55,942 nucleotides of DNA from an uncultured Alphaproteobacteria bacterium (GTDB lineage: Bacteria; Pseudomonadota; Alphaproteobacteria; Sphingomonadales; SMXR01). Below are positions 13,537-55,942 of the stretch, in pieces (within the stretch, counting starts at the first letter, position 1; every line of letters begins with the position of its first letter). Location: NCBI GenBank assembly GCA_937126915.1, contig CAKZLM010000115.1, positions 1 to 55,942 of the forward strand. The letters are read 5' to 3'. The notes below the pieces were generated by a model that saw only the letters and a program-made list of their open reading frames with translations, had not been told where the DNA came from and did no database searches. The translations under genes and the position numbers were made by a program.

Positions 13537-13604
13537 AAATTTTTCTCATAATTTTTTAACAAATATTGAACTAGTTTCTCTCTATTTGGGTATGATATAA
13601 TAAG

Positions 13605-13639: not shown

Positions 13640-13718
13640 ATGGTCGGGTCTCCTCTAAAACACAAGCGGTGATTCAAGAACTTAAAACTTATGATAAACA
13701 TATATAGAGAGTACAATC

Positions 13719-37260: not shown

Positions 37261-38943
37261 TCAATCCATTGGAACGCTATGATGACCAATTTTAGCATCA
37301 CCGGTTTCAAGGAATTTTTCTAGGCGCTTGGCTGTTTCATTCATGACGTCACCCCATGGCGTGCCAAAGTCATAGCCAGTGTAGATGGCATTAGGCACCA
37401 TAGGTGGGCCATATTTCGATCCAAAGTTCCACCAAACACGGTCAAAGCACAGCCACCAAGTGGGGATGCCGGTAGAAGCTGCAAACATGGTGGTACTAAT
37501 GCCTGCTCCAATCATGATATCAAGGTTTTGCATGATGGCAAATTGTTCTTCCAAATTGTTTCGTAGATCAATATCTGGCTTATAAATCTGGATGCCGTGC
37601 TTTTTCTCAAATGCCGCAATTTCTTCGTCGCAATCTGTATATTGTAGCGCAATTACCTTAACGCCTTTAGTTTTAATAATCGGCAGCATTGTTTCGAGGT
37701 TAAAATAGACAGTATCACGATAGGCATCGCTTTTAGAGCTGGTCCAAGCAACACCAACTTTCTTTTCAGGCCCCATGTCGTTAAAGATTTTGCGCCATTT
37801 TGCGACATCATCATCATTACCCTTAAAAAAGCCATTTTCAAAAATTGGGAAGTCTTCGGTTTTACGGGCATAAATTTTACCCGCAACCCCAGCTTCAAGG
37901 GCATAATCAATATTGGCCTCTCCATCCCTAATTTTATATTCCAGTTCAGTGTAGCTTCTATAGAGATAACCTGAGCCAAGCCCTGTGTTATGAGCATAAA
38001 TTTCACAGTTGGGGAACGCGCGCTGAAAAGCTGGGACAAGTCGTCGATCACAGCCAATGTATGTTTTTTGAGCTCGCTCTACCAATGGGGCGTAGATCAT
38101 GGCAAATAAAATTTCATCACCAACCCCTTGCTCAGCATGGATAAAAAGTGTTTTTTTACTGATGTCTTGACCGCGCCATGGCTTGGCTTTTAGTGTATAT
38201 ATCAAGGCATTGTTATCCTTGACTAGGCGGCTTTCGTAGAGTTTCCAAGCCTTTTTAATGTCACCTATTCGAAAATAATCAAAGGCTAAAGATGTGCGAA
38301 TTTCATGATTTTTCGGGTTGATTTTATGGGCCTTTTCCATCAAGGCCATTTTTTCATCTGGTCTACCCATTAAATTGAGGGCAATGGCTTTGTTATTGAT
38401 AGCGCTCACGGCTTTAGGGTTTAGTCTTAAGGCTTCATCATAGAAAACCATGGCTTCTTCATAGCGCCGTGTGTGAGCTAATTGTGTGCCAAGAATATTC
38501 CATAATTCTGGTCTGTCAGCAAATCTTGGTATGGCTGCTTGAAGAAATTCTATAGCTTCTTCATTTCGACGTAACAGGCCAAGAATGTTGGAATAGCCGG
38601 CATAAGCTTCATAATCGTCGGGAAAAGCTTCAATGAAGATTCTATAGAGTTTTTCGGCTTGTTCAAGCATGCCTAGTTTTTGGCACATGTCACCCATGAC
38701 CGAGAGAACATCCCGCGTAGGCCCTAATTTTTCAAAGGCCTTTTCTAGTACTAAGACGGCCTTATCACGTACACCTAACTGAACCATTAAGTGCGAAATA
38801 ATGACAAGAAGGTCGCTATCTTCTGGCACAATATCCCAAGCTTTTACATAATATTTTGCCGATTGTTCCCATTCACCTGCTTGATGGTGTTTGGCGCCCA
38901 ATTGAACATATTTTGCTAACTTATCCTGCGTTGCGGCATCCAT
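37261..38943 (-). CDS. TPR protein with C-terminal glycosyltransferase-like domain
   Basis: 560 aa from the ATG at 38943 (a GTG start lies two codons upstream; GAGGA precedes both). About residues 8-250 hold TPR repeats (for example RYEEAMVFYDEALRLNPKAVSAINNKAIALNLMG). From about 260 a GT9-like/ADP-heptose-transferase-type domain follows, with HAEQGVGDEILFAMIYAPL and later GVAWTSSKSDAYRDTVYF. TPR fused to such a domain occurs in proteins that glycosylate flagellin in motile Alphaproteobacteria. A sigma-54 promoter back-to-back with that of flbT supports a flagellar role. Glycosyl donor unknown. Confidence 0.7.
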   Translation of the reverse strand: MDAATQDKLAKYVQLGAKHHQAGEWEQSAKYYVKAWDIVPEDSDLLVIISHLMVQLGVRDKAVLVLEKAFEKLGPTRDVLSVMGDMCQKLGMLEQAEKLYRIFIEAFPDDYEAYAGYSNILGLLRRNEEAIEFLQAAIPRFADRPELWNILGTQLAHTRRYEEAMVFYDEALRLNPKAVSAINNKAIALNLMGRPDEKMALMEKAHKINPKNHEIRTSLAFDYFRIGDIKKAWKLYESRLVKDNNALIYTLKAKPWRGQDISKKTLFIHAEQGVGDEILFAMIYAPLVERAQKTYIGCDRRLVPAFQRAFPNCEIYAHNTGLGSGYLYRSYTELEYKIRDGEANIDYALEAGVAGKIYARKTEDFPIFENGFFKGNDDDVAKWRKIFNDMGPEKKVGVAWTSSKSDAYRDTVYFNLETMLPIIKTKGVKVIALQYTDCDEEIAAFEKKHGIQIYKPDIDLRNNLEEQFAIMQNLDIMIGAGISTTMFAASTGIPTWWLCFDRVWWNFGSKYGPPMVPNAIYTGYDFGTPWGDVMNETAKRLEKFLETGDAKIGHHSVPMD

Positions 38944-39075
38944 AATCACTGGTCCTCAATATAAGTCATTAACGTAGGTGTTTTACAACATTAATGAGCG
39001 ATAGAACTGAATGCAATCATTGAAATATCTTATCGCAGCAATAATTTGCTAAACAGTATCATTTGTTTTTTGTGA

Positions 39076-40662: not shown

Positions 40663-41481
40663 ATGGGTTTTTCTGTAAATACTAATGGCGGCGCTCTTGT
40701 CGCTCTACAAAACTTGAACAAAACAGCTAACTCGCTAAATACTGTTCAATCTCGCATTAACACTGGTTTGAAAGTTTCTTCAGCCAAAGATAATGCTGCC
40801 GTTTTCAACATTGCTCAGGGCCTACGTGCTGATTTGGGTGGTTTGAACTCTGCTAAATCTTCTATTGACCGCGCGATTTCTACAATCGACGTTGGCATTG
40901 CTGCTGGTGAGGCAGTTAGTGACTTGTTGATTGAGATGAAAGAGAAAGCTATTGCAGCAAAAGACACGGGTCTTGACGCGGATAGCCGTACTGCTTTGAA
41001 CGATGAGTTTAAAGAGCTTCGTGATCAGATTACAACTATTGTCGACAATGCTGAGTTTAACGGTGTGAACGCTGTTAAGTCTAACGCCGTTGTTGCTTTG
41101 TTGAACTCTGACGGTTCAAACAGCTTAACTGTTGCTGCTCAAAACATGTCTTTGGGTGGGTCAATTGTTACTGTTGCGGCTGCTGCGACTATTGGTGGTT
41201 CTACCGCTGCTGGTACTGTTGCTACTGCGATCGATACTTCAATTAAGAATGTTGGTACAGCCTTGTCTAAACTAGGTTCTGGTTCAAAACGTCTTGAGCT
41301 ACAAAAAACCTTCGTTAACAAGCTTTCTGACAGCATCGAAGTTGGTATTGGTAACTTGGTTGACGCTGACTTGGCTCGTGAGAGTGCTCAGTTGCAGTCA
41401 TTGCAGGTGCGTCAACAGCTTGGTTTGCAAGCGTTGTCTATCGCCAATCAGGCTCCAAGTTCAGTGCTATCACTGTTCTAG
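40663..41481 (+). CDS. Flagellin 1
   Basis: 272 aa, a short flagellin made of the D0/D1 core with a small central domain. N-terminal MGFSVNTNGGALVALQNLNKTANSL and SRINTGLKVSSAKDNAAVFNIAQGLRADLGGLN are flagellin helices; the C-terminal SIEVGIGNLVDADLARESAQLQSLQVRQQLGLQALSIANQAPSSVLSLF forms the matching half. The centre (about 135-195, Ala/Ser/Thr-rich) is variable among copies. It exits through the flagellar secretion system and polymerises into the filament. Sigma-54 promoter and hairpin leader directly upstream. Confidence 0.95.
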   Translation: MGFSVNTNGGALVALQNLNKTANSLNTVQSRINTGLKVSSAKDNAAVFNIAQGLRADLGGLNSAKSSIDRAISTIDVGIAAGEAVSDLLIEMKEKAIAAKDTGLDADSRTALNDEFKELRDQITTIVDNAEFNGVNAVKSNAVVALLNSDGSNSLTVAAQNMSLGGSIVTVAAAATIGGSTAAGTVATAIDTSIKNVGTALSKLGSGSKRLELQKTFVNKLSDSIEVGIGNLVDADLARESAQLQSLQVRQQLGLQALSIANQAPSSVLSLF

Positions 41482-41522: not shown

Positions 41523-41623
41523 TCTTCCGCTTAGGGTCCTTGTAGAATAGAAAAATATCACAAGGATGGATGGAAAACAGACGTGGTGACAGACACTGCG
41601 CCATAGATCGAAGGATCGGTACA

Positions 41624-42073
41624 ATGAGCGATATTACATTCAATATCAAAGCTCTCGGTGGTGCAGCTAGCTATGGCAGTGAACCCCCAAATACAAAAAG
41701 AACTGCCAATGAGAGCGGCACTAAAGTAAATGCGGCTAAAACAGAAACCCTTGATGTAAAAATTGATGGTCAACAAAGCTTATCGCTTTCTGAGCGTATG
41801 GCAGCTGAAACAGAAGAGAAGAAAGGCTTTGGCTTTGATGCCGTTGCTGACCCTCTTGAGGAAGCTGCGAAAATTTTGGATAGTTTTATTCCAAAACAAA
41901 CGCCAGAAACACGCTTGCAGATTGATCATGATGAAGAAACAGGGCGTTTCATTTATAAAAGTGTGGATAAAATTTCAGGAGAGACTGTCCGTCAATTCCC
42001 GCCAGAATATATGCTGAAGGTGCTTGAATTGCATCGCAATGCAGCAGGCCTGGTGATGGATGACGAGGTATAG
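41624..42073 (+). CDS. flaG: FlaG-family flagellar protein
   Basis: 149 aa from ATG 41624 (AAGGAT upstream; a frame from 41570 exists). The C-terminal 60 residues carry the FlaG pattern LQIDHDEETGRFIYKSVDKISGETVRQFPPEYMLKVLEL. The N-terminal 90 are low-complexity and polar. FlaG affects filament length or cap in several bacteria, but is less usual beside FlbT/FlaF. It sits between flagellin 1 and 2 and probably shares transcripts with them. Confidence 0.8.
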   Translation: MSDITFNIKALGGAASYGSEPPNTKRTANESGTKVNAAKTETLDVKIDGQQSLSLSERMAAETEEKKGFGFDAVADPLEEAAKILDSFIPKQTPETRLQIDHDEETGRFIYKSVDKISGETVRQFPPEYMLKVLELHRNAAGLVMDDEV

Positions 42074-42439: not shown

Positions 42440-43261
42440 ATGGGTTTTTCTGTAAACACTAATGCAGGTGCGCTTACTGCTCTGCAAAATTTGAATAAAA
42501 CTGACAGCTTGATGCAAAAAGTACAGTCTCGTATTAACACAGGCTTGAAAGTTGCGTCTGCTAAAGATAACGCTGCTGTGTTTAACATTGCTCAGGGCCT
42601 TCGTGCTGACTTGGGCGGTTTGAACTCGGCAAAAGCGTCCATAGACCGTGCGATTTCGACCATCGACGTAGCAATTTCTGCTGGCGAAGCCATCAGTGAC
42701 TTGTTGATCGAGATGAAAGAAAAAGCGGTTGCTGCAAAAGATTCTGGTTTGGATAGCGATAGCCGTACTGCGCTCAATGACGAGTACAAAGAGCTTCGCA
42801 GTCAGATTCAAACAATTGTTGATAATGCGGAATTTAATGGTGTTAACGCGGTTAAAGATAACGATATAGTTGCGATCTTAAACCCCAATGCGACGAACAC
42901 GTTAACTATTGGTGCTCAAAACCTATCTTTGAGTGGCAGCATCGTATCATTGACAACAACTTCTAGTATTTCGACATCGACAGCTGCTACGGCTGTGGCT
43001 ACGGCGATTGATAACTCAATTAAAGCTGTAGGTGCAAGTCTATCTAAGCTGGGTTCAGGTGCGAAACGCTTAGAATTGCAAAAAACTTTCGTCAACAAAT
43101 TATCAGATAGCATTGAAGTAGGTATTGGAAACCTTGTTGATGCAGATCTGGCTCGAGAGAGTGCGAACTTGCAGTCAATGCAGGTAAGACAGCAACTTGG
43201 CCTACAAGCCTTAGGTATTGCTAACCAGGCCCCAAGTGCGATTATCTCACTCTTCGGATAA
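42440..43261 (+). CDS. Flagellin 2
   Basis: 273 aa, same architecture as flagellin 1 with conserved D0/D1 halves and a variable Ser/Thr/Ala-rich centre (about 140-195). The start was set at ATG 42440 by homology to the other copies (MGFSVNTNAGALTALQNLN); an upstream frame to 42365 is untranslated leader. It has its own sigma-54 promoter and ends IISLFG where the others read VLSLF(G). It is among the more diverged copies. Confidence 0.95.
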   Translation: MGFSVNTNAGALTALQNLNKTDSLMQKVQSRINTGLKVASAKDNAAVFNIAQGLRADLGGLNSAKASIDRAISTIDVAISAGEAISDLLIEMKEKAVAAKDSGLDSDSRTALNDEYKELRSQIQTIVDNAEFNGVNAVKDNDIVAILNPNATNTLTIGAQNLSLSGSIVSLTTTSSISTSTAATAVATAIDNSIKAVGASLSKLGSGAKRLELQKTFVNKLSDSIEVGIGNLVDADLARESANLQSMQVRQQLGLQALGIANQAPSAIISLFG

Positions 43262-43403: not shown

Positions 43404-44225
43404 ATGGGTTTTTCAGTAAATACAAATGCAGGTGCTTTGGTTGCCCTTCAAAACTTAAACAAAACCAATAACTTAATGAATCAAGTTCAAACTCGTATTA
43501 ACACAGGTTTGAAAGTGTCTTCGGCAAAAGATAACGCTGCGGTTTTCAACATCGCACAGGGTTTACGGGCTGACTTAGGTGGTTTAAATTCTGCCAAGTC
43601 ATCAATTGACCGCGCCATCTCTACCATCGATGTTGCCATTTCTGCTGGCGAAGCAGTGAGTGACTTGTTGATCGAGATGAAAGAGAAGGCGGTTGCTTCT
43701 AAAGACACTGGTCTTGATGCAGACAGCCGGACTGCTTTGAACGATGAGTTCAAAGAGCTGCGTAATCAAATTACCACTATTGTTGACAATGCCGAGTTTA
43801 ATGGTGTTAACGCGGTTAAAACCAATGCGGTTGTGGCTTTGCTAAACTCTGACGGTTCAAATAGCTTAACAATTGCTGCACAGAATCTTTCTTTAGGTGG
43901 TGGTGTTGTTACTGTAACAGCTGGTTCATCAATCAGCAGCTCAACACTTGCTAGCAGCGTGTCAACTGCTATCGACAACTCAATTAAGGCTGTTGGAACA
44001 TCACTCTCAAAACTAGGGTCAGGTGCCAAGCGTCTTGAGTTGCAAAAAACTTTCGTCAACAAACTAGCTGACAGTATCGAGGTTGGTATTGGTAACTTGG
44101 TTGATGCCGACTTGGCCCGGGAAAGTGCAAATTTACAGTCAATGCAGGTTAGACAGCAGCTAGGGCGCCAAGCGTTGGGCATTGCCAACCAGGCTCCAAG
44201 TTCTGTGTTGTCACTATTCGGTTAA
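43404..44225 (+). CDS. Flagellin 3
   Basis: 273-aa flagellin of the same short type. It differs from the others near the C-terminus by RQQLGRQALG where they have RQQLGLQAL. 59 nt including its ribosome site and first codons (43383-43441) are identical to the same part of flagellin 4, pointing to recent duplication or gene conversion. Confidence 0.95.
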   Translation: MGFSVNTNAGALVALQNLNKTNNLMNQVQTRINTGLKVSSAKDNAAVFNIAQGLRADLGGLNSAKSSIDRAISTIDVAISAGEAVSDLLIEMKEKAVASKDTGLDADSRTALNDEFKELRNQITTIVDNAEFNGVNAVKTNAVVALLNSDGSNSLTIAAQNLSLGGGVVTVTAGSSISSSTLASSVSTAIDNSIKAVGTSLSKLGSGAKRLELQKTFVNKLADSIEVGIGNLVDADLARESANLQSMQVRQQLGRQALGIANQAPSSVLSLFG

Positions 44226-44370: not shown

Positions 44371-45192
44371 ATGGGTTTTTCAGTAAATACAAATGCAGGT
44401 GCTTTGGTAGCTCTTCAAAACTTGAACAAAACCAATACCATGATGAACAAAACGCAAAGTGCTATTAACACAGGTTTGAAAGTGGCCTCAGCAAAAGACA
44501 ATGCAGCTGTTTTCAACATCGCACAGGGTTTGCGCGCTGACTTGGGCGGTTTAAATTCTGCTAAGTCATCCATCGACCGCGCTATCTCAACCATCGACGT
44601 TGCTATTTCTGCTGGTGAAGCGGTTAGTGACTTGTTGATTGAGATGAAAGAAAAAGCGGTTGCTTCTAAAGACACTGGTCTTGATGCTGATAGCCGTACT
44701 GCGTTGAATGACGAGTATAAAGAGCTTCGTAATCAGATTACCACTATTGTCGACAATGCTGAATTTAACGGTGTAAACGCGGTTAAAACCAATGCTATTG
44801 TGGCTCTATTGAATTCTGACGGTTCAAACAGCTTAACCGTTGCTGCTCAAAACATGTCTTTGGGAGGATCGATCGTAACTGTAGCAGCTGCCTCTTCTAT
44901 CGGCGACTCTGCTACTGCCTCTACTCAGGCTGCTGCGATTGACGCTTCAATTAAGAATGTTGGAACAGCTCTATCTAAACTAGGTTCGGGCTCAAAACGT
45001 CTTGAGCTACAAAAAACCTTCGTTAATAAGCTATCTGACAGCATCGAAGTCGGTATCGGTAACTTGGTTGACGCTGACTTGGCTCGTGAAAGTGCAAACT
45101 TGCAGTCCTTGCAGGTACGTCAACAGCTTGGTCTACAAGCGTTGGGTATTGCCAATCAGGCTCCAAGTTCTGTGTTGTCACTATTCGGTTAA
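44371..45192 (+). CDS. Flagellin 4
   Basis: 273-aa short flagellin. The N-terminal part differs from copy 3 at NTMMNKTQSAINTGLKVASAKDN, while the rest is close to copies 1 and 3. The central variable part (VAAASSIGDSATASTQAAAI) is its most distinct region. Last of the array and followed by a strong terminator. Confidence 0.95.
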   Translation: MGFSVNTNAGALVALQNLNKTNTMMNKTQSAINTGLKVASAKDNAAVFNIAQGLRADLGGLNSAKSSIDRAISTIDVAISAGEAVSDLLIEMKEKAVASKDTGLDADSRTALNDEYKELRNQITTIVDNAEFNGVNAVKTNAIVALLNSDGSNSLTVAAQNMSLGGSIVTVAAASSIGDSATASTQAAAIDASIKNVGTALSKLGSGSKRLELQKTFVNKLSDSIEVGIGNLVDADLARESANLQSLQVRQQLGLQALGIANQAPSSVLSLFG

Positions 45193-45220: not shown

Positions 45221-45252
45221 GGCGGGGCCAAGGGGTTCCGCCTTTATTTTTT
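45221..45252 (+). terminator. Terminator after the flagellin array
   Basis: GGCGGGGCC (45221-45229) pairs with GGTTCCGCC (45234-45242, two G-T) and runs into TTTATTTTTT (45243-45252). The T tract overlaps the 3' end of the convergent GH57-like gene. Confidence 0.8.
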
Positions 45253-47217
45253 GATTAAGTCAACTGAATAGCTGAAGATAAGAGGCATCTCTTCAAGTGG
45301 GTCAATTTTCTCTGACTTTCTGGTGTCATCAATTTCAGAGGCAGATAAAAGCAACCGTGCGAAATATCCGTCTTTAACCGTGTCATAGTGAATCATTGCC
45401 ATTAAAGCTGCATCGGCTTTTTGGAAGCTAAGGGCAATTTGTCGTTTTTCATCACCAATCAGAATGCACTGGTTGGTGGCTGCCATTGCTGTGTTGGCTG
45501 AAACAAGTAGCGATAAGCGGCCAGCATGGCTAATGGTTTCTTTACCTTCTAGATAATGGGTGTCTTCGTTTTTATGACCATTGGCACAGCTAAAGAAAAG
45601 AGTGTCTTTGTTAAAAACCAGGGGGTTAAGGGTGGTTTGACCCAAATGGCAGATGCATTGTTGATTAAGTAATTTTTTAAGGCCTTCATACCCGATGGTT
45701 AATTTGCCGTCTTCAAAAAGTTGTACATGCTTGACGATTGGACCGGCGTTGGTTTCAATTGTCGAGGTGACCACCAAACATTGCTGGTCTTGATCAAAAT
45801 AAATCTGAGGTTTTGTGGGGCCTAGGTCGGTAATTTTATGTTGGCCGGGGCGATCAATCGTTAAGTGCCCAGAATAAAAATCAGCGCCCCAAGCAATGTC
45901 ATCATAAAACCCATGCGGAATTGTGCCCATCCAAGGGTGAGGCTGGGAATCATCATTTCGCTTAAAGGCATCAATTGCGAGGCCGCGTTTGGGAGACAGG
46001 GTTAGGGTTACTGCTTGGTTTTTTATGGTTATGGCATAATTATCTTGATGAATAACAAAACCATCAGGAATACCTTCAGATATATTAATGGTTTTTTGAC
46101 GGGGCAGACTAGGTGTTAGTGCACCCAATTTTTTGCGGTAAGACTGCCAACGCGCATCGGTGATGTGGGTGCGAAAATCACTGCTCCAAAGATAACAAAG
46201 GGTTTTCCATTGGCCCAGATCGGCTTCATTTGTCTCAATAAGGTTTTGGTATATACGCCAACAACCCGTATTAATGGCGAGGTCATTACGACCAGTTAAT
46301 GACCATCGGTTTACATTGTATTTACGTTGTTTTTTAACGGTTATTGGACTGCTGTTACTTTCCAGTTTTAGATGATGTTTAGGTAAGTTCTTTGTCGCAC
46401 TTAGAGCATCGCTAGGCAAGACAAGCTTGAAGCGGTCGTCATTGTTTAAAACATCAAAAATTGCTTCAATACGGGCCCATTCCGATTGGCTGGATAAAAG
46501 CGCTTCATTTGAAAAACGGCCCGGGCGATAGTCAAAAATTTCTGCGTCACTGGTATAGAGGGGAATAGCGCGCGCCCCTTGGGCCAATAGTTTTTCTAGA
46601 TAATGGAAATAAGCGTCTGGAGTGATTTGGTCATGGGCAATGCGTTGAAACTGTTGAAAAATAAGGGCATTGCTCCAAAGAATATTTATTTCGTTACCGT
46701 CATGACCGCGCACGATTTGTGGTGCAAGGCCAATGTCGGGTGTCCAGTGGGGGTGATGGCTGGCAGGTTCGGCCCAGTCCATAATGATGGTGTCATAGCC
46801 GTGTTGTATGTAATGGTCCACCATGCCGGGGCTGAAGGCTTGCTCATTGACCAAGGCGATGGTGGGTTTAATGCCCAGCATTGATTGATAAATCATGTCA
46901 CCAATGGTTAAATTATAACTGTTAACCTTTGGCGGCACAGTTGGCCCAATCAATTGACTATATCCACTTCCTATAAATTCAACTTTTCCTGCTTTGATTA
47001 AATCAGCCAGTTTTTTGATCCATTGCGGGGATATTCTCTCAATTTCTTCAAGGGTAAAGCCCGTGGCTTCAAGGCCAATAGGAAGGTTATTATTATTGGC
47101 AAGGTCAAGCAGGGGCCAATAACATTTTTCAACCACATCTTTCCTAGCGTCTTCTTCGATGGAAGAGAAGGCAAGGTTCAGATGAAAAACATTATATAAA
47201 TAAGTCACTTGCGACAT
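45244..47217 (-). CDS. GH57-like polysaccharide-modifying protein
   Basis: 657 aa from ATG 47217 (GGGGA just upstream; a TTG frame reaches 47238). The N-terminal third resembles GH57/polysaccharide-deacetylase-type barrels: YNVFHLNLAF at residues 8-17 takes the place of the first His motif, and E125 in ALVNEQAFSP is a candidate for the GH57 nucleophile position. The C-terminal half is beta-rich, with ISLLV-type strands suggesting a substrate-binding or galactose-mutarotase-like domain. Possibly an alpha-amylase-like or glycan-trimming enzyme. It is the last gene of the glycan operon, 53 nt after its upstream neighbour. Confidence 0.6.
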   Translation of the reverse strand: MSQVTYLYNVFHLNLAFSSIEEDARKDVVEKCYWPLLDLANNNNLPIGLEATGFTLEEIERISPQWIKKLADLIKAGKVEFIGSGYSQLIGPTVPPKVNSYNLTIGDMIYQSMLGIKPTIALVNEQAFSPGMVDHYIQHGYDTIIMDWAEPASHHPHWTPDIGLAPQIVRGHDGNEINILWSNALIFQQFQRIAHDQITPDAYFHYLEKLLAQGARAIPLYTSDAEIFDYRPGRFSNEALLSSQSEWARIEAIFDVLNNDDRFKLVLPSDALSATKNLPKHHLKLESNSSPITVKKQRKYNVNRWSLTGRNDLAINTGCWRIYQNLIETNEADLGQWKTLCYLWSSDFRTHITDARWQSYRKKLGALTPSLPRQKTINISEGIPDGFVIHQDNYAITIKNQAVTLTLSPKRGLAIDAFKRNDDSQPHPWMGTIPHGFYDDIAWGADFYSGHLTIDRPGQHKITDLGPTKPQIYFDQDQQCLVVTSTIETNAGPIVKHVQLFEDGKLTIGYEGLKKLLNQQCICHLGQTTLNPLVFNKDTLFFSCANGHKNEDTHYLEGKETISHAGRLSLLVSANTAMAATNQCILIGDEKRQIALSFQKADAALMAMIHYDTVKDGYFARLLLSASEIDDTRKSEKIDPLEEMPLIFSYSVDLIKK

Positions 47218-47269
47218 AGGGTCCCCAATCTGAGACAAGTTTATCGACAGATTGATGTTCTGACAAGCT

Positions 47270-49009
47270 TCACTTTTTAACTGTTGTCATGATCAGATTT
47301 GCAATACGGGAAATATTGTTGGCTAAAGAATACTTTTTGGCACTTTCTTGCCAAGTTCCTAGTTGATCAGCATTGCTTTTAAGGTTGGAAAGAGACGTCT
47401 TTATGTCATTAAGGGCTAAAGACACTGCTTGCCCTAAAACAAGGCCTAAATCAAGACGTTCAAACATTTTGGCATTGGCCATGTCACCTAAATGATGACA
47501 TATCATCAAAGGTGGTCGCCTCATCATGATAGCCTCATAAGCCGTGATGCCATAACCACATATAATAGCTGAACAATCACCTACAACCTCGGTAATATCA
47601 TGTATGTTTTGATGGAGATTAACCAAGTTCTGTAATGCCTTAAGCGAGCTGGTCAGTGCCTCTTGGTCACTAAAGTTAGGGCCTATGATAACGTCAAACG
47701 GAATTGAAAGCTCATTGCATATAGTTGCCAGTGGAAGAGTAACGTTTTTTGGGTCGCTGCCACCCATTGTTATCAAAATCTTTAGGGTGTTTGCAGTCGG
47801 TTGAGCTATTTCTTTTAAAGGCGGAATGAGGGCAAAATCAAGACCGTGATAGGTATCGCCCTTAATATCTGTGGTCTCTAGGTCAGCTACCAACGGATAA
47901 AAGGCAAGATCAGCCGCTTTTTTGCGTTCAGAGCCATCGTCAATTAAAATAAGTGGTAAGTTAGGTAAGTCGGCCTTAATGGTTTTAAGGTCAGCGAAAC
48001 TTGTATCGTCGCGAATATCAAGGATTGCGGCATCAAACTCTCTCGATTGTAAAATGGAGCATAATTCAGGGCCCTTATGAGCAGGGTTTTCAAGGAAGAT
48101 TGTGCTGAACCCATCAGCTTGATAAGCATCGAGTTTTTCTTTAGGTACGGCATAGGTAATGCCCACTGAATGATGGGTTTTAAGGTAGTTTGCTAATGGT
48201 TTTAAGCGTTTTTCATGACCAAGCCCCATACCATGTCGTATTTCAGGGCACATCAGTATTTTAATGGTTTTTTCATCGGCCCGTTTTTGTCGCACAAAAT
48301 TATTAATCTTAACCAGCTCTGGCTTGGCTTTTAAAATGCTTACGGCATCTTCAATCTCTAAATCCCCTACAGGGGCACCAGTTTCGGCATAAAGGGCTTC
48401 GATAAAGGTTTTGTCTTCTGGTGTGTCGATGGATATGCGGGCGCCCGCAAATATATGGCTTTTAGGCAACGTCATTTTTGCCACATTGCCGTAATCTGGA
48501 TGAAGGGTTAAATAACCGCTAACATGTTCTTTTGCTGCCGGATCATCAGATTTTTCACGCAACAACCGCTCTAAAAAAGCGGATTTCATTATATCGGACC
48601 CCTCATGCAAATAATCATGGCGATCACCAGTGATGATATCGGCCTCACACAGTGATAATTGTTCTAACCCATAATCCAAAAGCCACGGGTCAATGAGGGG
48701 ACTATCACCTGTTATTCTGACAATATAATCACTGGGGAAGGCCTCATGGGCGATGCGAAAGCGCATCAAAACATTATCCAGTGGGCCACGCACAAATTTG
48801 AGTTTGTGACGTTGGCAATAATCAACCAAGGCATCATCAGACGGTTGATCCGAGGTGGCTACCACAATGGTTTTAATATGCTTAGTTTTTTTGAGACGAT
48901 GAATGATGTGCCAAATAAGAGGCTTACCCGCAATGTCGCGCAAAATCTTGCCCGGAAAGCGAGTGGAGCTAAGGCGCGCTTGAATGATGGCAGTGGCATT
49001 TATCATCAT
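47270..49009 (-). CDS. Fusion of SpsF-like cytidylyltransferase and PseG-like glycosyl hydrolase
   Basis: 579 aa, two domains. Residues 1-245: an SpsF/CMP-sugar synthetase-type nucleotidyltransferase with the P-loop-like QARLSSTRFPGK (10-21) and ITGDSPLIDP (99-108). Residues 250-579: a PseG-like domain (HGMGLGHEKRLKPLA from 259 and LITMGGSDPKN later), the family that removes UDP from 2,4-diacetamido-trideoxy sugars in pseudaminic acid synthesis. Activation and UDP-removal are normally separate proteins at different steps, so the fused order suggests a variant nonulosonic or other CMP-sugar route (inference). It lies 15 nt after the ATP-grasp gene in the operon. Confidence 0.75.
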   Translation of the reverse strand: MMINATAIIQARLSSTRFPGKILRDIAGKPLIWHIIHRLKKTKHIKTIVVATSDQPSDDALVDYCQRHKLKFVRGPLDNVLMRFRIAHEAFPSDYIVRITGDSPLIDPWLLDYGLEQLSLCEADIITGDRHDYLHEGSDIMKSAFLERLLREKSDDPAAKEHVSGYLTLHPDYGNVAKMTLPKSHIFAGARISIDTPEDKTFIEALYAETGAPVGDLEIEDAVSILKAKPELVKINNFVRQKRADEKTIKILMCPEIRHGMGLGHEKRLKPLANYLKTHHSVGITYAVPKEKLDAYQADGFSTIFLENPAHKGPELCSILQSREFDAAILDIRDDTSFADLKTIKADLPNLPLILIDDGSERKKAADLAFYPLVADLETTDIKGDTYHGLDFALIPPLKEIAQPTANTLKILITMGGSDPKNVTLPLATICNELSIPFDVIIGPNFSDQEALTSSLKALQNLVNLHQNIHDITEVVGDCSAIICGYGITAYEAIMMRRPPLMICHHLGDMANAKMFERLDLGLVLGQAVSLALNDIKTSLSNLKSNADQLGTWQESAKKYSLANNISRIANLIMTTVKK

Positions 49010-49024
49010 GGTACCCGTTTTTAA

Positions 49025-50266
49025 TTAATCAGTGTTCACGTAGGTAAAGTGAATATTGGCAATGGCTTTTTCTGCATTTTTGATGGCGTCTTCATGGCTC
49101 TGGCCTTTGGCGATGACCATGCCTACACGGCAAGTGTGATCGGTGGTTGCCTTAATGATATCACCTTCCTTAACACGCAATTCATGGTGGATTAGGCTTG
49201 GGTTCTCTTGCCAACTTTCATGGCCTGAAATGGTTTTGATAATTCCCGGTTTGGTAAATAAATAGCGCTGGCAAAGGTGCTTTTCATTCTCGTAAGGGGT
49301 CAGGTCATCGGTTGTCAGTTTTTCGCTTAAGGCTAATTTGATGGCATTTTCAACGAAGGGAATGCCGGTTGAATAAGGAATTTCCATGGTACAAAAATGA
49401 CCACCGCTTAATCGTGTTGCCATTTCTATGATCATCGGCTTACCTTGATGTATGACAATGTCACCCTTAACGACGCCTGTTCTGGCGCCTAAGCTGGTTG
49501 CAGCTTGTTGTACTAGGTCACAGATGTCTTGCCTTAAAATAGGAGAAATGTTGGCGGGCAGTTCACCGCCATCTTCGATCATAAAGGGGGCGTATTCTTT
49601 AATGCGTTGATAATTACGGTCTGAAAAACCAAACGTATGGCAGATGCCGTCAATGACCAAGCTTTCGGTACTTATTTGTGGACCTTCGATAAACTCTTCT
49701 AAAATCAAACGCTTGGTTGGTGAGTGGGAAAGCGCTTCATCAAAGGCCCAGTTGATATCGACATCAGGTAAAAGACGAATAACACCACGCGCACCACGGC
49801 TATCAGCAGGTTTAAGGATATGGGCTGTTGTTGGCTTTGCAGATAAAACCTCTTCCAATTGGGGCAGGGTGGTTAACTCGTAATATTGCGGAATGGCGAC
49901 CTTGTCTTTTTGAAACGCCTGCTTCATATGCACTTTGTCGATAGATGTAAGGGCTGTCTCAAGGCTATTTCCAGCCAGTCCAAGCTTATTGGCAACGGCT
50001 GCCACTGTATGGGGTATGTCAGACGCAACCGCAATAACACCATCAATAGGGCGAACATTAGTATGATAATCACAGGCCTTTTCAGCAGTGCCCTTGAGGT
50101 CATAAGTGCTGGATAGAATGAAATCATCAGCTACATTAGCCCCAGCTGCATCAACAGCACCATCTGTAGCGACCACAAAAAGACCCATGGATTGGGCTAT
50201 TTTGATGCCGGGCAGGGCTTCAATTCCAGCACCAACAACCAATAATGTTTTTTTGTGATCAGCCAT
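49025..50266 (-). CDS. ATP-grasp family ligase
   Basis: 413 aa of the carbamoyl-phosphate/D-Ala ligase type. The N-terminal pre-ATP-grasp Rossmann part VVGAGIEALPGIKIAQSMGLFVVATD is followed by the ATP-grasp core with ILKPADSRGARGV at about residues 150-162 and GDIVIHQGKPMIIEMATRLSGG at the metal site. Such enzymes join a carboxylate to an amine or thiol through an acyl phosphate. In this operon it may attach an amino acid to a sugar (inference). Neighbours are the SDR gene and the SpsF-PseG gene. Confidence 0.75.
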   Translation of the reverse strand: MADHKKTLLVVGAGIEALPGIKIAQSMGLFVVATDGAVDAAGANVADDFILSSTYDLKGTAEKACDYHTNVRPIDGVIAVASDIPHTVAAVANKLGLAGNSLETALTSIDKVHMKQAFQKDKVAIPQYYELTTLPQLEEVLSAKPTTAHILKPADSRGARGVIRLLPDVDINWAFDEALSHSPTKRLILEEFIEGPQISTESLVIDGICHTFGFSDRNYQRIKEYAPFMIEDGGELPANISPILRQDICDLVQQAATSLGARTGVVKGDIVIHQGKPMIIEMATRLSGGHFCTMEIPYSTGIPFVENAIKLALSEKLTTDDLTPYENEKHLCQRYLFTKPGIIKTISGHESWQENPSLIHHELRVKEGDIIKATTDHTCRVGMVIAKGQSHEDAIKNAEKAIANIHFTYVNTD

Positions 50267-50278
50267 TTTTGTGCTGCC

Positions 50279-51007
50279 CTATACCCACGCGCCGCCATTA
50301 ATGCTCATGGTTTGTGCGGTCATATAGCTCGATTCATCCGAGGCTAAGAAAACAGCGGCACCCGTCATGTCTTCAACCGTGCCTAAATGTTTTAAAAGCA
50401 ACAAGTTATCAACCAATTTGCGCACATCTGGAGCCATAGATTTAGCTGTGAATTCATTGCCAATAACACCAGGTGATAGGCAGTTTACGCGAATTTTACG
50501 ATCTCCCACAAAACGTGCTAAACAATGGGTTAAAGACATAACACCAGCCTTTGCCGCGGCATAAGATGGGGTGCGTGGCCCGCCATATTCACCCGAAAGT
50601 GAACCGATATTAATGATAGAACCACCCTCATTCATATGCGGCAATATTTTTTGACAGCATAAAAACACACCTTTAAGGTTTACGTCTAAAACAAAGTCCC
50701 AATCTTCTTCACTTAATTTGTCAAAGTCGTTGGTTTTGTTAACGCCAGCATTGTTGACTAACACATCCACGCCGCCGGTTTTTTGGGCAACATCAGCAAA
50801 CACATCGACAATTTGTTGGCTGTCACGAACATCTAAGTGATAAACCAAATCAGTGTTGCAGTTTTTAGCGGTTTCAACGGCACCATCTTTATTATTATTA
50901 TAGGTGACAACTACAGTGGCACCTTCGCGGGCATAGCTTTCAGCAATTGCTTTGCCAATGCCGCTGCTTGATCCGGTAACAATACAAACTTTATTTTCTA
51001 AACGCAT
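50279..51007 (-). CDS. SDR-family oxidoreductase
   Basis: 242 aa classical short-chain dehydrogenase. TGSSSGIGKA at residues 11-20 binds NAD(P), NNAG at 85-88, and the catalytic S136, Y149 and K153 (SYAAAKAG) are in place. Probably reduces or oxidises a sugar hydroxyl in the operon pathway. A FabG-type role is a weaker alternative given its neighbours. It is 12 nt from the ATP-grasp gene. Confidence 0.85.
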   Translation of the reverse strand: MRLENKVCIVTGSSSGIGKAIAESYAREGATVVVTYNNNKDGAVETAKNCNTDLVYHLDVRDSQQIVDVFADVAQKTGGVDVLVNNAGVNKTNDFDKLSEEDWDFVLDVNLKGVFLCCQKILPHMNEGGSIINIGSLSGEYGGPRTPSYAAAKAGVMSLTHCLARFVGDRKIRVNCLSPGVIGNEFTAKSMAPDVRKLVDNLLLLKHLGTVEDMTGAAVFLASDESSYMTAQTMSINGGAWV

Positions 51008-51015
51008 ATGGGGTC

Positions 51016-51684
51016 CTAACCTTCGTATTCTTTTCGTTGGTCATCAGACAAGGTGTTCCAAGCTGATAAAAAGTCATTTTCACCCTGTAATACCAATGGG
51101 TTGGTATAAACATTTTTCCAAGTGGTTGGGGGAACAGTTACAGCATCCGCACCGCTTGAGGCCGATTCCATCAGTTCGTGGCTGTTGCGAATGCTGGCCA
51201 GTAAAATTTGGGTTTTGCTGCCCATCACATTACGTAGTTTTTCTAGGGCGCTGGTGTTGCCTGATCCATCCAAGTAAAAATCCCGCAAACGCCCCAAAAT
51301 TAGGCTCACATAATCAGCATTAAGCATTAAAAATGGAATGGTTTGAGTGGGGTCAAAATTAAGAGTGATATTTAAGGGAATACCCATTTCTTTAAGTTCC
51401 TTAGCCGCTTTATAGCCCTCCAAGGTTGATGGGATTTTCACCACGATATTATCGGCGATTTTAGCGAGACGATGGCCTTGCTCGATCATTTCATTGCTGG
51501 TGCGATAGGTTACTTGTGCAGAGACAGGCCCATTAACCATATTGGCCACTGTACGAACATGGTCTAGGGCTTTACCGGTTTCTTTGGACAGAATGGCAGG
51601 GTTGGTGGTTACCCCATGAACCAAGCCAAATTGTTGCCAATATTCAATATCTTCAATTGAAGCAGTATCCAAAAAATATCTCAT
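51016..51684 (-). CDS. Transaldolase / fructose-6-phosphate aldolase-like protein
   Basis: 222-aa TIM-barrel of the short transaldolase family. The Schiff-base lysine is K83 in NIVVKIPSTLEG; the opening MRYFLDTASIEDIEYW and GVTTNPAIL (24-32) are typical. Its place inside a glycan operon suggests it builds or splits a sugar carbon skeleton for the dedicated pathway instead of serving central metabolism. 8 nt from the SDR gene. Confidence 0.8.
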   Translation of the reverse strand: MRYFLDTASIEDIEYWQQFGLVHGVTTNPAILSKETGKALDHVRTVANMVNGPVSAQVTYRTSNEMIEQGHRLAKIADNIVVKIPSTLEGYKAAKELKEMGIPLNITLNFDPTQTIPFLMLNADYVSLILGRLRDFYLDGSGNTSALEKLRNVMGSKTQILLASIRNSHELMESASSGADAVTVPPTTWKNVYTNPLVLQGENDFLSAWNTLSDDQRKEYEG

Positions 51685-51708
51685 TGTCTGAAGTCCTTTT
51701 GTCTTTAT

Positions 51709-53088
51709 TTATGCGCTGGCTTTTCTGGCGTTTTGATCAAAACCATAGAAGCCAATTTTATAATCATGGTATGGATAATTTAATTGATCAAGCATTTGTG
51801 TAATAGGCGCTTTGTAACGTTTTCCTTTAAGTTCAGGTGTTAGGTTCAAAAAGGCTTGAATAAGATCACGGTCAAGGAAGGGATAGCGTGATTCAACCCC
51901 AAAATGCCCATTCATGCGTTCATTGCCTCCTAATAACACTTGGTTCCAGCCAGCATTAAAATTGACCCATGGTTTGTTGGCTTTAGTCCAATCACCTTTA
52001 AGGCACGAACGGCGTGAATTAGAAAATTCGTTATAATAATCAGAAATAATTTCATCAGCACCCTGACCAGACATTAAAATCAACTGCCCGTTGGATTTAG
52101 CCAGCTTTGAGATATAGGCAGAGCCTAAAAAGCCACCAATAGTGCGAACATCAGGATCTGGATATTTCACATCGGGTGTGCCAGCATATTCAATGGCATA
52201 ATAAGGCGCGTCTTGTTTTACTTCTGCTTCAAAGGCATCCCACTCAGCAGGGCTTGGGTCTAATTCGACAAAATCTAGTCCTTGTTCTGCCATGAGGGCT
52301 TTACGAGCGGCTAAAATTTCGGCTTTTTCGCCATATGGCATGGCATAGCTGGCAAATTTAACACCTTGGTGCATCAATTCAGCCGCAATTAAGCCACTGT
52401 CATGACCACTGCTTAAGGGTACGAAAATAGGGTGTTGTGCGGTTTTGCTACGCTTTTGAATGGCTTTTTGAAAGGCTTTTGTAAAATCATCATAATGGTC
52501 GGTGTTTGCATTTTCAAAATCAAAATGATGCAGTGTTTCTTCTGATATAATGCTGTAATCAACCAAACTGATCGTCAATATGGTGTTTGCATTTAACTGA
52601 AGAGGTTTAGCTGATGGTAAGGCAGCTGTGCAGGTAACATCATAGCTGCCTGCTACAAGGGCACCATCATGAATGGCATAATAAAGTGGCTTGGTGGTGA
52701 AATAGTCGGTGACAAAAGTAACCGTGTTGCGGGCTTGATTGTATAGAATGATAGCAAATTCACCATCAAGACCGTGCAAGCAATCCATGCCGTCTTCTTT
52801 TAAGCGGCGCTGTAAATAGTCGCTGTCGCTGTAAGAAGGCGAATAATTCTGCCAATCATTATAAATTTCACCATTATAAAGGCCATAACCATCAGGCAGC
52901 GCAAAGGGTTGCTTGCCATCGCCTGTGATGCTTAAGATGGTGTGCATGGCAATCGTATGATCCATCTCGAAGACATTTGTTGCATCAGGTCCACGAAAAC
53001 GCAAGGTGTACTCAACCGCAGTAAGGTTATCCTTGATTGCAGCTAAGGTGTTTTGATTATTACTATGGGCGAAAAATATACCGCACAT
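51709..53088 (-). CDS. Class II glutamine amidotransferase / asparagine synthase-like protein
   Basis: 459 aa, shorter than AsnB (about 550-630). The nucleophile is C2 (MCGIFF), with RFRGPD (30-35) and YNGEIYN (71-77) of the glutaminase domain. The synthase half has the PPi loop as SSGHDS (226-231), in place of the usual SGGxDS. The PPi-loop change and reduced length suggest an amide-forming enzyme on a sugar acid or other carboxylate and not on aspartate (inference). It is followed by the transaldolase after 24 nt. Confidence 0.8.
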   Translation of the reverse strand: MCGIFFAHSNNQNTLAAIKDNLTAVEYTLRFRGPDATNVFEMDHTIAMHTILSITGDGKQPFALPDGYGLYNGEIYNDWQNYSPSYSDSDYLQRRLKEDGMDCLHGLDGEFAIILYNQARNTVTFVTDYFTTKPLYYAIHDGALVAGSYDVTCTAALPSAKPLQLNANTILTISLVDYSIISEETLHHFDFENANTDHYDDFTKAFQKAIQKRSKTAQHPIFVPLSSGHDSGLIAAELMHQGVKFASYAMPYGEKAEILAARKALMAEQGLDFVELDPSPAEWDAFEAEVKQDAPYYAIEYAGTPDVKYPDPDVRTIGGFLGSAYISKLAKSNGQLILMSGQGADEIISDYYNEFSNSRRSCLKGDWTKANKPWVNFNAGWNQVLLGGNERMNGHFGVESRYPFLDRDLIQAFLNLTPELKGKRYKAPITQMLDQLNYPYHDYKIGFYGFDQNARKASA

Positions 53089-53163
53089 GGTTTGATGACC
53101 CTTATTAAAAAGCTTTCAACTGGAATTGCAATTATGATGCCGAACTTCTGTTGTACGTGAAAA

Positions 53164-54201
53164 TTAGTCTTTTAAATCATAGGCTTCTTTCATGGTGACA
53201 ATGGCTTTTATCTTGTCACCAGCAATGGAACGTGCTTCTGGTCTTATTTCATGTTCATACAAAAGGGAATTGATATATAGTGTAAAGCTATCAAAATTAG
53301 CCATATGTTCAGGGGCGAAGACATCAACGCCATAACAATTTTTGCCCTGCTTTTTGGGATCTTTATCAACATAACATAAGATATCATCAATGTTCATTTG
53401 ATAATGTAAGTCATCAACGGCTAATTGGCTACCTACACCCCAAACAACAACGGGGCCCTCAATTTTTAGTGGTGGGAGTTTATAATTAGGCTGCTTTTCA
53501 ACTAAATCACGTGCTCGCATAGCAAGTAACTGCATGCCAAGAGGACATCGCTGGTTATGAAAAATAGATGTTCTTAGGTCAATGATTACATAACCTAATC
53601 TTTCTAAAAAACGACCGATTGAGGTCACGCTGAAAAAATGCAAATGGGATGTGTTTTCATCATAATAAAAGCGTGGATGACCGCTTCTGTTGGGTACTTC
53701 TAAATAGATCATTCCCCCTTTAGATAATAAACAGTCAAAGGCCTTGATAAAGTCTCCAATATCCCAAATGTGTTCTAGGGTGTGATTGCAAATCATTAGG
53801 TCAAATTGGTGAGTGCCTCTATTAGCTAGTTCCTGAATTGTCATATTGTGGACGACATCAACTTTTGTTTCTGCCTCTTTGTAGCGGGGCGAAATTTCTA
53901 CCCCTTCATATGATTTAAAAGGAACATTTTGGCGCAGTAATTGTGCGTAATTTCCATCAGAGACACCCACTTCAAGCGCTCTCATGTTTTGAGTGTGAAA
54001 TAATGATAATAAGTCATAAGCGGGCTGCATACGGGCATCAGACGTTTCGGAAAACATTGGGTTATTATCATAGTCATAAATAATATTTTCTGTGCGCCAC
54101 ATATGACAACATTGGTCGCAAATGTAACAATCACCTGATACGAGTGAAATGGTTTGATTAGGTTTTTCCCCACAGCACGGACAATGGTTAGAGTTGCTCA
54201 T
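53164..54201 (-). CDS. Class I SAM methyltransferase with N-terminal zinc ribbon (C-methyltransferase-like)
   Basis: 345 aa. The first 35 residues have two C-x2-C pairs (C7/C10 and C28/C31), a small zinc ribbon. The SAM core includes ALEVGVSDGNYAQLL (about residues 75-89) and FDLMICNHTLEHIWD. The C-terminal part has a Rossmann-like VVWGVGSQLAVDDL at about 264-277, as in sugar C-methyltransferases. Likely methylates a nucleotide sugar. A 75-nt gap separates it from the amidotransferase gene downstream. Confidence 0.75.
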   Translation of the reverse strand: MSNSNHCPCCGEKPNQTISLVSGDCYICDQCCHMWRTENIIYDYDNNPMFSETSDARMQPAYDLLSLFHTQNMRALEVGVSDGNYAQLLRQNVPFKSYEGVEISPRYKEAETKVDVVHNMTIQELANRGTHQFDLMICNHTLEHIWDIGDFIKAFDCLLSKGGMIYLEVPNRSGHPRFYYDENTSHLHFFSVTSIGRFLERLGYVIIDLRTSIFHNQRCPLGMQLLAMRARDLVEKQPNYKLPPLKIEGPVVVWGVGSQLAVDDLHYQMNIDDILCYVDKDPKKQGKNCYGVDVFAPEHMANFDSFTLYINSLLYEHEIRPEARSIAGDKIKAIVTMKEAYDLKD

Positions 54202-54214
54202 AGAAACCTTCTTT

Positions 54215-55459
54215 TCAAATGTCGACTAAACTATTCACCAAATGCTTCAAATAGCTTCTGGCAGATTGTTGCAGGTATGCAATATTCTTGGATAGAGTAT
54301 CTTTGATGCTGTCTCTGTTATTCCAAGTGTTTAGCACTTTTTTTCTAATGAGATCAGTATCTTCACTCATATAAGCCATTTGATCTTCAAGCCCCAAATC
54401 GTGAAGGAATGGCGACATATGTCCTTTAAAGATGCTACCAAAAGATAAAAACGGTACATTATTCAAGGCCGCAAAAATGGATGAATGGCGGCGGTTGGAT
54501 AAATGCATATCCACAAGCTGGAATAGGGAATAGGTCTCAAACAGACTAAGATCCTGCTTAATCTGCTTAATCATGTTGGTATGTTTCATGCGTTTGATCA
54601 CCTCGTCGTGTACAACACGATCATCTTGCCATTTGTTGGCATTGGTATAGGTGCAGTTTGGAATAAGCAGAACAGGGTGTCCTAAATCCTCAATCATATT
54701 ATCAAGGATGTTGGCCATTTTTTCAGCCTCAGCAAAAAACTCCTCATCACTGCGCACCCAATATTCATGGCGATAATTGGCACCAATGATAGGTCCATTG
54801 GGCAGGGTTATGTTTTCGCGTGCCAACACTGATCGGGCATAGTCAGCATCATATTCTGGCCAAATACCAAAGGCGGGATCTCCTAAGATCATTACGTTGT
54901 TCATATCAACGCCGGTGGCCTCTAGGTTGTTATAGGCGCTTTGCTCTCTAACGGTTACAACAGTGGCATTTTCACATAAAAACTTAGCGTGGGCTAAGGT
55001 GGTTTCATTTTCAATGGGATCAACCACGTTTAGGCCATAAAGGGCAAACGGGGTGCCTAAGAACTTTGCTAACAGACCAAGGGTGGCAGAATAGGACGAG
55101 ACACCGCGTAAAAATTCGTTGTTGGAAACTTCCATAAAACTGTTCCCGCCCAGAACAAGCAGGTCAGCCTCTTCAATTTCTTGTTTGATACGCTTAAGGT
55201 TGGCGGTGTCATCACCTTTGTTCAGCCCCATGAAAAAACGGCCAAGGCTGGCCTCGCGGCTGTCATGGTCAAGATTTTTGATGGAGGTAAAACCAAAGGC
55301 CTTGTCATAATCAAGGTTAGGATGGCGAGCGATGAAAATAATCTCACAATCAGGGTAATCACGCTGAATGCTTTGGGTAAGCGTGGCGAGCATGGCATCA
55401 TCACCCATGTTTTTAACGCCATATGTGCTGGCCCCAGTGATGACAACTTTCTTCATCAC
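54215..55459 (-). CDS. Polysaccharide pyruvyl transferase family protein
   Basis: 414 aa. The opening VVITGASTYGVKNMGDDAMLATL and the later RRHSSIFAALNNVPFLSFG (about 323-341) are typical of the CsaB/WcaK pyruvyl transferase family, which uses phosphoenolpyruvate to add a ketal pyruvate to a saccharide (known for members). It overlaps the upstream methyltransferase by 4 nt and sits 13 nt before the next. Confidence 0.8.
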   Translation of the reverse strand: MMKKVVITGASTYGVKNMGDDAMLATLTQSIQRDYPDCEIIFIARHPNLDYDKAFGFTSIKNLDHDSREASLGRFFMGLNKGDDTANLKRIKQEIEEADLLVLGGNSFMEVSNNEFLRGVSSYSATLGLLAKFLGTPFALYGLNVVDPIENETTLAHAKFLCENATVVTVREQSAYNNLEATGVDMNNVMILGDPAFGIWPEYDADYARSVLARENITLPNGPIIGANYRHEYWVRSDEEFFAEAEKMANILDNMIEDLGHPVLLIPNCTYTNANKWQDDRVVHDEVIKRMKHTNMIKQIKQDLSLFETYSLFQLVDMHLSNRRHSSIFAALNNVPFLSFGSIFKGHMSPFLHDLGLEDQMAYMSEDTDLIRKKVLNTWNNRDSIKDTLSKNIAYLQQSARSYLKHLVNSLVDI

Positions 55460-55942
55460 GCCTTCCTTCCTAATATATCAACCTGACGGCCTAGTCCCAA
55501 ATCGGCAAAGGCTTGATATAGGCTGTCTTTAAGGTCTTTTCGGCCCGCGTTTTCAAGAGCGGCTTCAAAGTTTTTGCGCCGTCCATGGCTGGCGGCACCT
55601 AGTTCATTATTTCCAATATAATTGTCACCCATAAGCAAGAATATATCAATCGGAAAGCTGGTGGTGCAAGATAGCACATCAAATTGGTTTGTTTGATAAA
55701 CCCGCTTAATGCTTTCAACATTGAAATAATTTAAATGCTCAGGGGGCACCAACCACCATGGTTCATGCCCTTTTGAGGTTCGTAAAATCTCTTGAAAAGG
55801 GTTAAAGTCATTGGCGACCGATGTGAAAAGAAGGCCGCTATCTTTGAGTAATTCTTGTGTCTTGGCGAAAAATTGCTGGGGGTGACGTACATGCTCTAAA
55901 ACGCCGTGGCTGTATATGACATCAAATTGGCCAATGCTCGCC
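55456..55942 (-). CDS. Class I SAM methyltransferase (5' end cut by window)
   Basis: The visible frame enters from beyond the right edge; 161 codons before the stop are present, ending GRQVDILGRKA. The first visible stretch FDVIYSHGVLEHVRHPQQFF is the motif after the SAM-binding loop of class I methyltransferases, and LLFTSVANDF the next strand. The glycine-rich motif I would lie off the window. It is the first visible gene of the glycan operon and overlaps the pyruvyl transferase gene by 4 nt. Confidence 0.75.
   Translation of the reverse strand, partial: ASIGQFDVIYSHGVLEHVRHPQQFFAKTQELLKDSGLLFTSVANDFNPFQEILRTSKGHEPWWLVPPEHLNYFNVESIKRVYQTNQFDVLSCTTSFPIDIFLLMGDNYIGNNELGAASHGRRKNFEAALENAGRKDLKDSLYQAFADLGLGRQVDILGRKA

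Follow-up and report, generated by a model that had tools for sequence, protein, structure and literature searches.

A divergent transaldolase at a variable carboligase position in a probable flagellin-glycosylation cassette of an uncultured alphaproteobacterium

The DNA analysed here, referred to as the window, is a stretch of 55,942 nucleotides that makes up contig CAKZLM010000115.1 of an uncultured alphaproteobacterium (Sphingomonadales; SMXR01). The source assembly is 99% complete and is fragmented into 176 contigs. An operon of nine minus-strand open reading frames (ORFs) lies at 45244-55941, with intergenic gaps of -4 to 75 bp, and appears to encode part of a sugar-activation pathway that includes an unusual small transaldolase. 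Domains were assigned with Pfam and NCBIfam profiles. From left to right, the genes encode a GH57-like glycoside hydrolase (45244-47238; PF03065), an SpsF-type cytidylyltransferase fused to a PseG-like hydrolase (47270-49009; CTP_transf_3, 1.9e-28), an ATP-grasp ligase with an LAL_C2 domain (49025-50266), and a short-chain dehydrogenase/reductase (SDR; 50279-51007), assigned by Pfam and by its position next to the ligase. These are followed by a divergent TalC/FSA-type transaldolase (51016-51684; TAL_FSA, 136.3 bits, 1.8e-39) and an AsnB-like glutamine amidotransferase with GATase and Asn_synthase domains, the N-terminus MCG and the motif LSSGHDS (51709-53088). The remaining genes encode an S-adenosylmethionine (SAM) methyltransferase (53164-54201; Methyltransf_23), a polysaccharide pyruvyl transferase family protein (54215-55459; PS_pyruv_trans, PF04230), and a second SAM methyltransferase (55456-55941; Methyltransf_23).

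Flagellar genes flank the operon on its left. Four plus-strand flagellin genes (40663-41481, 42440-43261, 43404-44225 and 44371-45192) encode the likely acceptors, a FlaG-like gene with a FlaG domain lies among them (41570-42073, plus strand), and FlbT and FlaF genes are also present. A minus-strand gene at 37261-38949 encodes a FlmG-like protein with tetratricopeptide repeats (TPRs), a candidate flagellin glycosyltransferase whose C-terminal half has no Pfam match. In relatives, related ORFs adjoin the fusion gene. An earlier sequence-only reading described nine packed genes with these domains beside four flagellins. The profiles return the same domains, Flagellin_N/C domains confirm the flagellins, and the 5' end of the ninth gene is cut by the contig end.

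The same reading proposed looking for this gene set in other genomes, and a conserved cassette was found. An alignment of seven ATP-grasp proteins was used to search the contigs of named genomes, and the best 80 of 93 loci were kept. By tblastn, these 80 loci have GH57 (72), SDR (68), the fusion or its parts (55), NeuB (49), flagellin (47), the ninth-gene methyltransferase (41), the FlmG-like protein (38), PseB (33) and a DegT/PseC aminotransferase (31). The SDR gene is directly upstream of the ATP-grasp gene, the anchor of the cassette, in 55 of 75 scorable loci, and GH57 is directly downstream in 55 of 77; therefore, the grouping is not due to chance. In alphaproteobacterial loci the genes usually run FlmG, fusion and NeuB, methyltransferase, sulfotransferase or FkbM, a transketolase split into two genes, SDR, ATP-grasp, GH57, PseB, PseC and flagellins. 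A flagellin, FlmG-like or Maf gene lies near the cassette in 55 of the 80 loci, and together with the FlmG-like protein of the window this bears out the suggested link to flagellin. The operon in all likelihood acts in flagellin glycosylation.

The cassette also occurs on a plasmid. Solidesulfovibrio carbinolicus pDCAR1 carries the same set, publicly annotated as pseF, NeuB family, transketolase halves, ATP-grasp, glycoside hydrolase, pseB and pseC, so that an entire pseudaminic-type cassette, transketolase and ATP-grasp genes included, is plasmid-borne. A further variant is seen in four loci of the window's taxonomic order (L185, L187, L189 and L190), where a divergent ATP-grasp gene (27-31% identity) and FkbM lie in a flagellin island in which no carboligase was seen; in L185 a GFO/IDH/MocA oxidoreductase gene comes after the ATP-grasp gene.

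The site that adjoins the SDR and ATP-grasp genes is occupied by a carbon-carbon-forming enzyme of changing type, as judged by Pfam, and is referred to here as the carboligase slot. Slot enzymes were called by tblastn (E 1e-8) on one strand within 6.5 kb upstream, a setting in which remote enzymes may be missed. Among 107 loci, the window included, the slot holds a split transketolase in 73, a transaldolase in eight, an acetolactate synthase (ALS) type enzyme in eight, a NeuB with a SAF domain in three and a 1-deoxy-xylulose-5-phosphate synthase (DXS) like enzyme in one (L202). No slot enzyme was called in the other 14, nine of which have room for one and five of which have less than 3 kb of upstream sequence. 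No locus has two slot types. The SAF domain is detected by Pfam in the slot NeuBs of L086, a locus that starts near its contig edge, and L177; the ATP-grasp of the third locus, L209, is divergent (31%), and this locus may have been counted falsely.

Gene order indicates replacement at this site. Two loci from the window's own order (L183 and L192) have AsnB, a transketolase pair and SDR in a contiguous row where the window has AsnB, transaldolase and SDR; L184 has the same contiguous transketolase pair and SDR, with AsnB cut off. Transaldolase genes lie near ATP-grasp in six Deltaproteobacteria records and in one Acidimicrobiia record (L079), in the order transaldolase, SDR, ATP-grasp, NeuB and GH57. 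One transaldolase-bearing cassette (L112) has a zinc alcohol dehydrogenase at the SDR place, followed by a Maf-type (MptE-like) transferase and a flagellin; it also encodes a radical SAM protein that binds B12 and, of the glutamate-semialdehyde aminomutase type, a class-III aminotransferase (11238-12761 and 1655-2968).

The ATP-grasp tree covers 99 of the 107 loci, eight with ATP-grasp identity below 35% having been left out. On this quick tree, the five slot types need eight label changes. The clearest swap seen is that between L177 (SAF-NeuB) and L174 (transketolase), which are sisters with support of 100 within the transketolase group. L177, from a genome of the same order, carries at 10750-13939, instead of a transketolase pair, the SAF-NeuB, an iron alcohol dehydrogenase and two small ORFs, of which one matches TPP_enzyme_C. 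Several entries of transaldolase into the slot were also considered. Three changes are needed for the eight transaldolase rows on the ATP-grasp tree, but a single clade is not rejected (p-AU 0.467), and multiple entry is unproved; in the case of the window, both the transaldolase and the ATP-grasp rows sit on long branches of unsure placement. At least two copies of a transketolase half lie on one strand in seven of the 107 loci. Six clusters (L151, L181, L183, L184, L192 and pDCAR1, L194) have two same-strand transketolase pairs, several with an iron alcohol dehydrogenase, and paired transketolases could mean two successive two-carbon extensions.

The slot enzyme of the window departs from other transaldolases at several conserved residues. 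The closest solved relatives of this protein are bacterial transaldolases, and its TIGR00875 score is 173.6, under the cut-off of 245.95. Compared with 29 housekeeping copies of relatives and seven other cluster copies, it retains Asp6, Asn28, Lys83 (the Schiff-base lysine), Ser164 and Arg166. It has changes of Glu57 to Gln, Pro128 to Leu, Phe129 to Ile and Asp/Glu134 to Arg, and the Glu, Pro and Phe are kept in all 36 other copies (29/29 and 7/7). The Glu at position 57 is the catalytic Glu of transaldolase. In E. coli fructose-6-phosphate aldolase (FSA), Gln59 occurs together with a Tyr131 proton shuttle (PMC13259622). The window protein has the matching Gln57, but Ile rather than Tyr at position 129, which corresponds to Tyr131 by motif reading. 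Because the usual Glu is missing and the Gln is present without the FSA Tyr, the enzyme may catalyse a changed aldol reaction, or it may be weak.

The nonulosonic acid (NulO) backbone would be made in part by genes elsewhere in the genome. The sole NeuB gene is on another contig (C69:223-1113), divergent from a PseB and PseC pair that is followed by two flagellins and FlgI. PseB (483.9 bits, cut-off 407.75) and PseC (477.1, cut-off 423.5) score as NCBIfam equivalogs, in keeping with the nonulosonic acid or related sugar that the sequence-only reading had suggested. The PseG part of the fusion (TIGR03590, 63.9 against 153.55 bits), PseI (140.5 against 340.25) and PseF (24.8 against 205.7) are below their equivalog cut-offs. 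No PseH match over the cut-off was found in the genome (best 35.8 bits, cut-off 93.1), although the fragmented assembly could hide one. The fusion protein of the window has the motifs RLSSTRFPGK and GLGHEKR; among 56 fusion ORFs of at least 450 aa, GxGHxxR is present in all and RxxSxRxPxK in 55. Nine class relatives, chosen by their fusion protein, were read in larger stretches. The order of their cassette is GH57, ATP-grasp, SDR, other genes and methyltransferase, then divergent NeuB and fusion. A NeuB 55-60% identical to the C69 copy is directly beside the fusion in seven of the nine, the exceptions being L069 and L070. Such an order would fit a C69 contig directly abutting the right end of the window, a junction that is unproved since the contig ends do not overlap. 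The C69 NeuB has 296 aa and a Pfam NeuB domain only, without a SAF domain. The NeuB at L062:223-1113 and most cassette NeuBs have 284-304 aa and lack the SAF domain, although Caulobacter NeuB depends on a C-terminal arginine; something else must therefore cap the active site.

The ATP-grasp ligase is a constant part of the cassette. Its solved relatives form amides, the best being the L-amino acid ligase BL00235 (3vot, E 2e-29), with BacD further off. Among 49 PseB-bearing genomes in a set of 99 relatives, 19 have the ATP-grasp gene, 11 have a PseH match and none has both (Fisher p 0.0034, relatedness not corrected for). Outside the PseB-bearing group, one genome (G002) has the ATP-grasp gene and another (G094) has a PseH match. 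The GH57 protein scores 50.4 bits against a Pfam cut-off of 21.2. Its AlphaFold2 model (pLDDT 90.7) has a barrel at about 8-381 that matches GH57/GH38 enzymes and, at about 385-664, a C-terminal beta-sandwich of the mutarotase-like type; against 9ihu, VIA-align gives a Z of 32.8 and a root-mean-square deviation of 2.7 over 333 aligned residues. His19, Glu132 and Asp231 do not vary across an alignment of 33 copies, made up of the window copy and 32 of the 59 ORFs found.

From gene content, conservation and gene-level swaps, we infer the side-chain reactions, the acceptor and the order of steps in the following pathway. PseB and PseC would make a 4-amino sugar nucleotide. The slot enzyme would build the carbon skeleton of a polyhydroxy acid: the transaldolase here, via a three-carbon dihydroxyacetone unit, and elsewhere a transketolase, an ALS-type, a DXS-type or a second NeuB enzyme. 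The SDR and the methyltransferases would finish this acid, and the ATP-grasp ligase would join it to the second amine of the NulO, which is otherwise acetylated by PseH. The AsnB-like protein may amidate the side chain. The PseG-like, NeuB and SpsF steps would then give the cytidine monophosphate (CMP) sugar, and the FlmG-like transferase would place its NulO on flagellin. That the cassette makes a CMP-activated pseudaminic-type NulO with a custom side chain for flagellin is moderately probable, and the same somewhat better than even confidence covers the view that the operon is the larger part of this flagellin-glycosylation cassette. We propose more tentatively, at a little less than an even chance, that five kinds of carboligase swap in one slot and thereby change the side chain of the flagellar NulO, and that the window transaldolase, having lost its Glu, may carry out a new aldol reaction.

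An experimental counterpart exists in Shewanella oneidensis, where sfmABCDE (SO_3261-SO_3265) encodes a NeuB, a thiamine diphosphate (ThDP) enzyme, an SDR, a methyltransferase and an ATP-grasp protein. Loss of any of sfmA-D leaves flagellin of unmodified size, and loss of sfmE causes a slightly smaller shift. The glycan consists of a 274-Da mono-N-acetyl NulO and a nitrogen-free, methylatable moiety of 236, 250 or 264 Da (C9H16O7, C10H18O7 or C11H20O7), and PseB and PseC, but no clear PseH, were found by its authors (PMC3765264). We computed two unsaturations for these formulas, which are compatible either with a sugar residue or with an acyclic polyhydroxy acid in its lactone form.

Several observations weigh against the proposed pathway. 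The mutant of sfmE, the ATP-grasp gene, is milder than those of the ThDP enzyme, SDR and methyltransferase, which is not what a simple order of making the chain and then attaching it predicts. The outer moiety was easily lost in the ion source, and a basic group seemed to be present in the 274-Da part (PMC3765264); these properties may point to a labile link, glycosidic or other, rather than to an amide. Our confidence is not higher because of these two points, the mild mutant and the labile moiety. The homology to the Sfm proteins itself rests on described domains and lengths. Furthermore, PseH and this ATP-grasp are both missing from 19 of the 49 PseB-bearing relatives, 14 of the 107 ATP-grasp loci have no slot enzyme (nine of them away from a contig edge), and the NeuB of the genome is on a separate contig that shares no end overlap with the window.

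In an alternative pathway, a glycosidic bond would attach to the NulO a separate sugar residue, methylated and either branched or of higher carbon number, as the product of the slot enzyme and SDR; or these two enzymes would modify the chain of the NulO itself. The ATP-grasp protein would then do another job. An easily cleaved, nitrogen-free 236-Da moiety (C9H16O7), the milder sfmE phenotype (both from PMC3765264) and the frequent GH57-type neighbour would suit such a sugar. However, no conventional glycosyltransferase domain was detected by Pfam or NCBIfam in the window operon, the invariable ligase has amide-forming relatives, and the two unsaturations would also be compatible with a polyhydroxy amide that loses a lactone. 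We consider this alternative unlikely. A surface polysaccharide, rather than flagellin, could also receive the product: 25 of the 80 loci lack a flagellin, FlmG-like or Maf gene, and L079 carries a Bac_transf initiating transferase. But flagellins border the cassette in the window, on C69 and in most alphaproteobacterial loci, and the Pfam/NCBIfam domains of the operon include no polymerase, flippase or initiating transferase, which makes this destination very unlikely.

Two further alternatives concern the transaldolase alone. No other TAL_FSA gene was found in the genome, while 93 of the 99 genomes in the relatives' set (source genome included) have a match at 1e-20, and the transaldolase might thus be the displaced pentose-phosphate enzyme, in the operon by accident. 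Against this, it is at best 38% identical to the relatives' copies and forms a very long branch, its changed Glu, Pro and Phe are conserved in every one of those copies, and transaldolases are beside the same ATP-grasp gene in seven other loci. Six of the 99 genomes have no match, and a fragmented genome may miss a housekeeping copy; displacement is thus improbable. The sequence-only reading saw no NeuB-type synthase and suggested that the transaldolase could take over its carbon-joining role. The window indeed has no NeuB, but the genome has one beside PseB and PseC, close relatives of it adjoin the fusion in most of the class relatives, and cassettes with a transketolase, transaldolase or ALS-type slot enzyme carry NeuB as well, L079 having it in the same locus as its transaldolase. 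That reading had also set out what would speak against it, a separate NeuB and pathway elsewhere together with unchanged glycans on deletion, and the genomic half of this is what C69 contains. Synthesis of the backbone by the transaldolase is thus extremely improbable.

If true, swapping in this slot would explain the diversity of flagellar sugars: the sialic-acid-like backbone is fixed, and the side chain depends on which enzyme occupies a replaceable position. For the outer glycan moiety of Shewanella, it would supply an enzyme sequence that can be tested. The cassette also yields a family of enzymes of transketolase, ALS and transaldolase types that would build small acids, and allows unrelated enzymes to be compared in one genetic place. 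As far as searched, an exchangeable slot for a carboligase, and the form of it that holds a transaldolase, are new. In the open literature, which leaves most subscription journals outside, no paper was found that joins transaldolase, flagellin and nonulosonic acid, or transketolase, ATP-grasp and pseudaminic. Among the matches listed for flagellin glycosylation and nonulosonic acids, transketolase appeared only as a housekeeping gene (PMC12342839) or in a proteomics paper (PMC8549738), and transaldolase was absent among the matches listed in a further search. Elsewhere in the window, two similar neighbouring ORFs of 146 aa (21185-21625 and 21753-22193) have an unknown function.

Components of this cassette are present in several known systems. 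The sps genes of Bacillus subtilis encode an SpsF-type cytidylyltransferase and the PseG-like SpsG; in contrast, the corresponding parts are fused here and tied to flagellins, and we know of no carboligase slot in the sps genes. The flagellin glycan of Treponema denticola is reportedly a nonulosonic acid of 450 Da that bears a 2-methoxy-trihydroxyhexanoyl group, for which no structure paper was found; by computation, 274.12 plus C7H12O5 gives 450.18. The pseudaminic pathway shares with the present system PseB and PseC above their cut-offs and the PseG-like and NeuB-family steps. It differs in that, here, no PseH exceeds the cut-off, the PseG-like, NeuB and cytidylyltransferase proteins are far below the equivalogs, and a ligase and a carboligase are added. 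The FlmG system of Caulobacter, also an alphaproteobacterium, shows NeuB-dependent flagellin glycosylation by a protein with TPRs and a C-terminal transferase, to which the FlmG-like protein of the window, with its TPRs, may correspond. In Caulobacter, however, pseudaminic acid is made by a NeuB that requires the arginine R322 in its C-terminal part (PMC7591256), a domain that the cassette NeuBs lack. The Shewanella sfm cluster, as described (PMC3765264), shares a short NeuB (SfmA 290 aa; here 296, without SAF), PseB and PseC with no clear PseH, and an SDR, a SAM methyltransferase and an ATP-grasp ligase encoded together; it is next to a Maf gene and is needed for flagellin modification. It has a ThDP enzyme of the ilvB type where the window has a transaldolase, and the SpsF-PseG fusion, GH57, AsnB-like and pyruvyl-transferase genes are additions of the window. 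By this comparison of described domains and gene content, sfm is the closest experimental match, and the window is a variant of it rather than a strict member.

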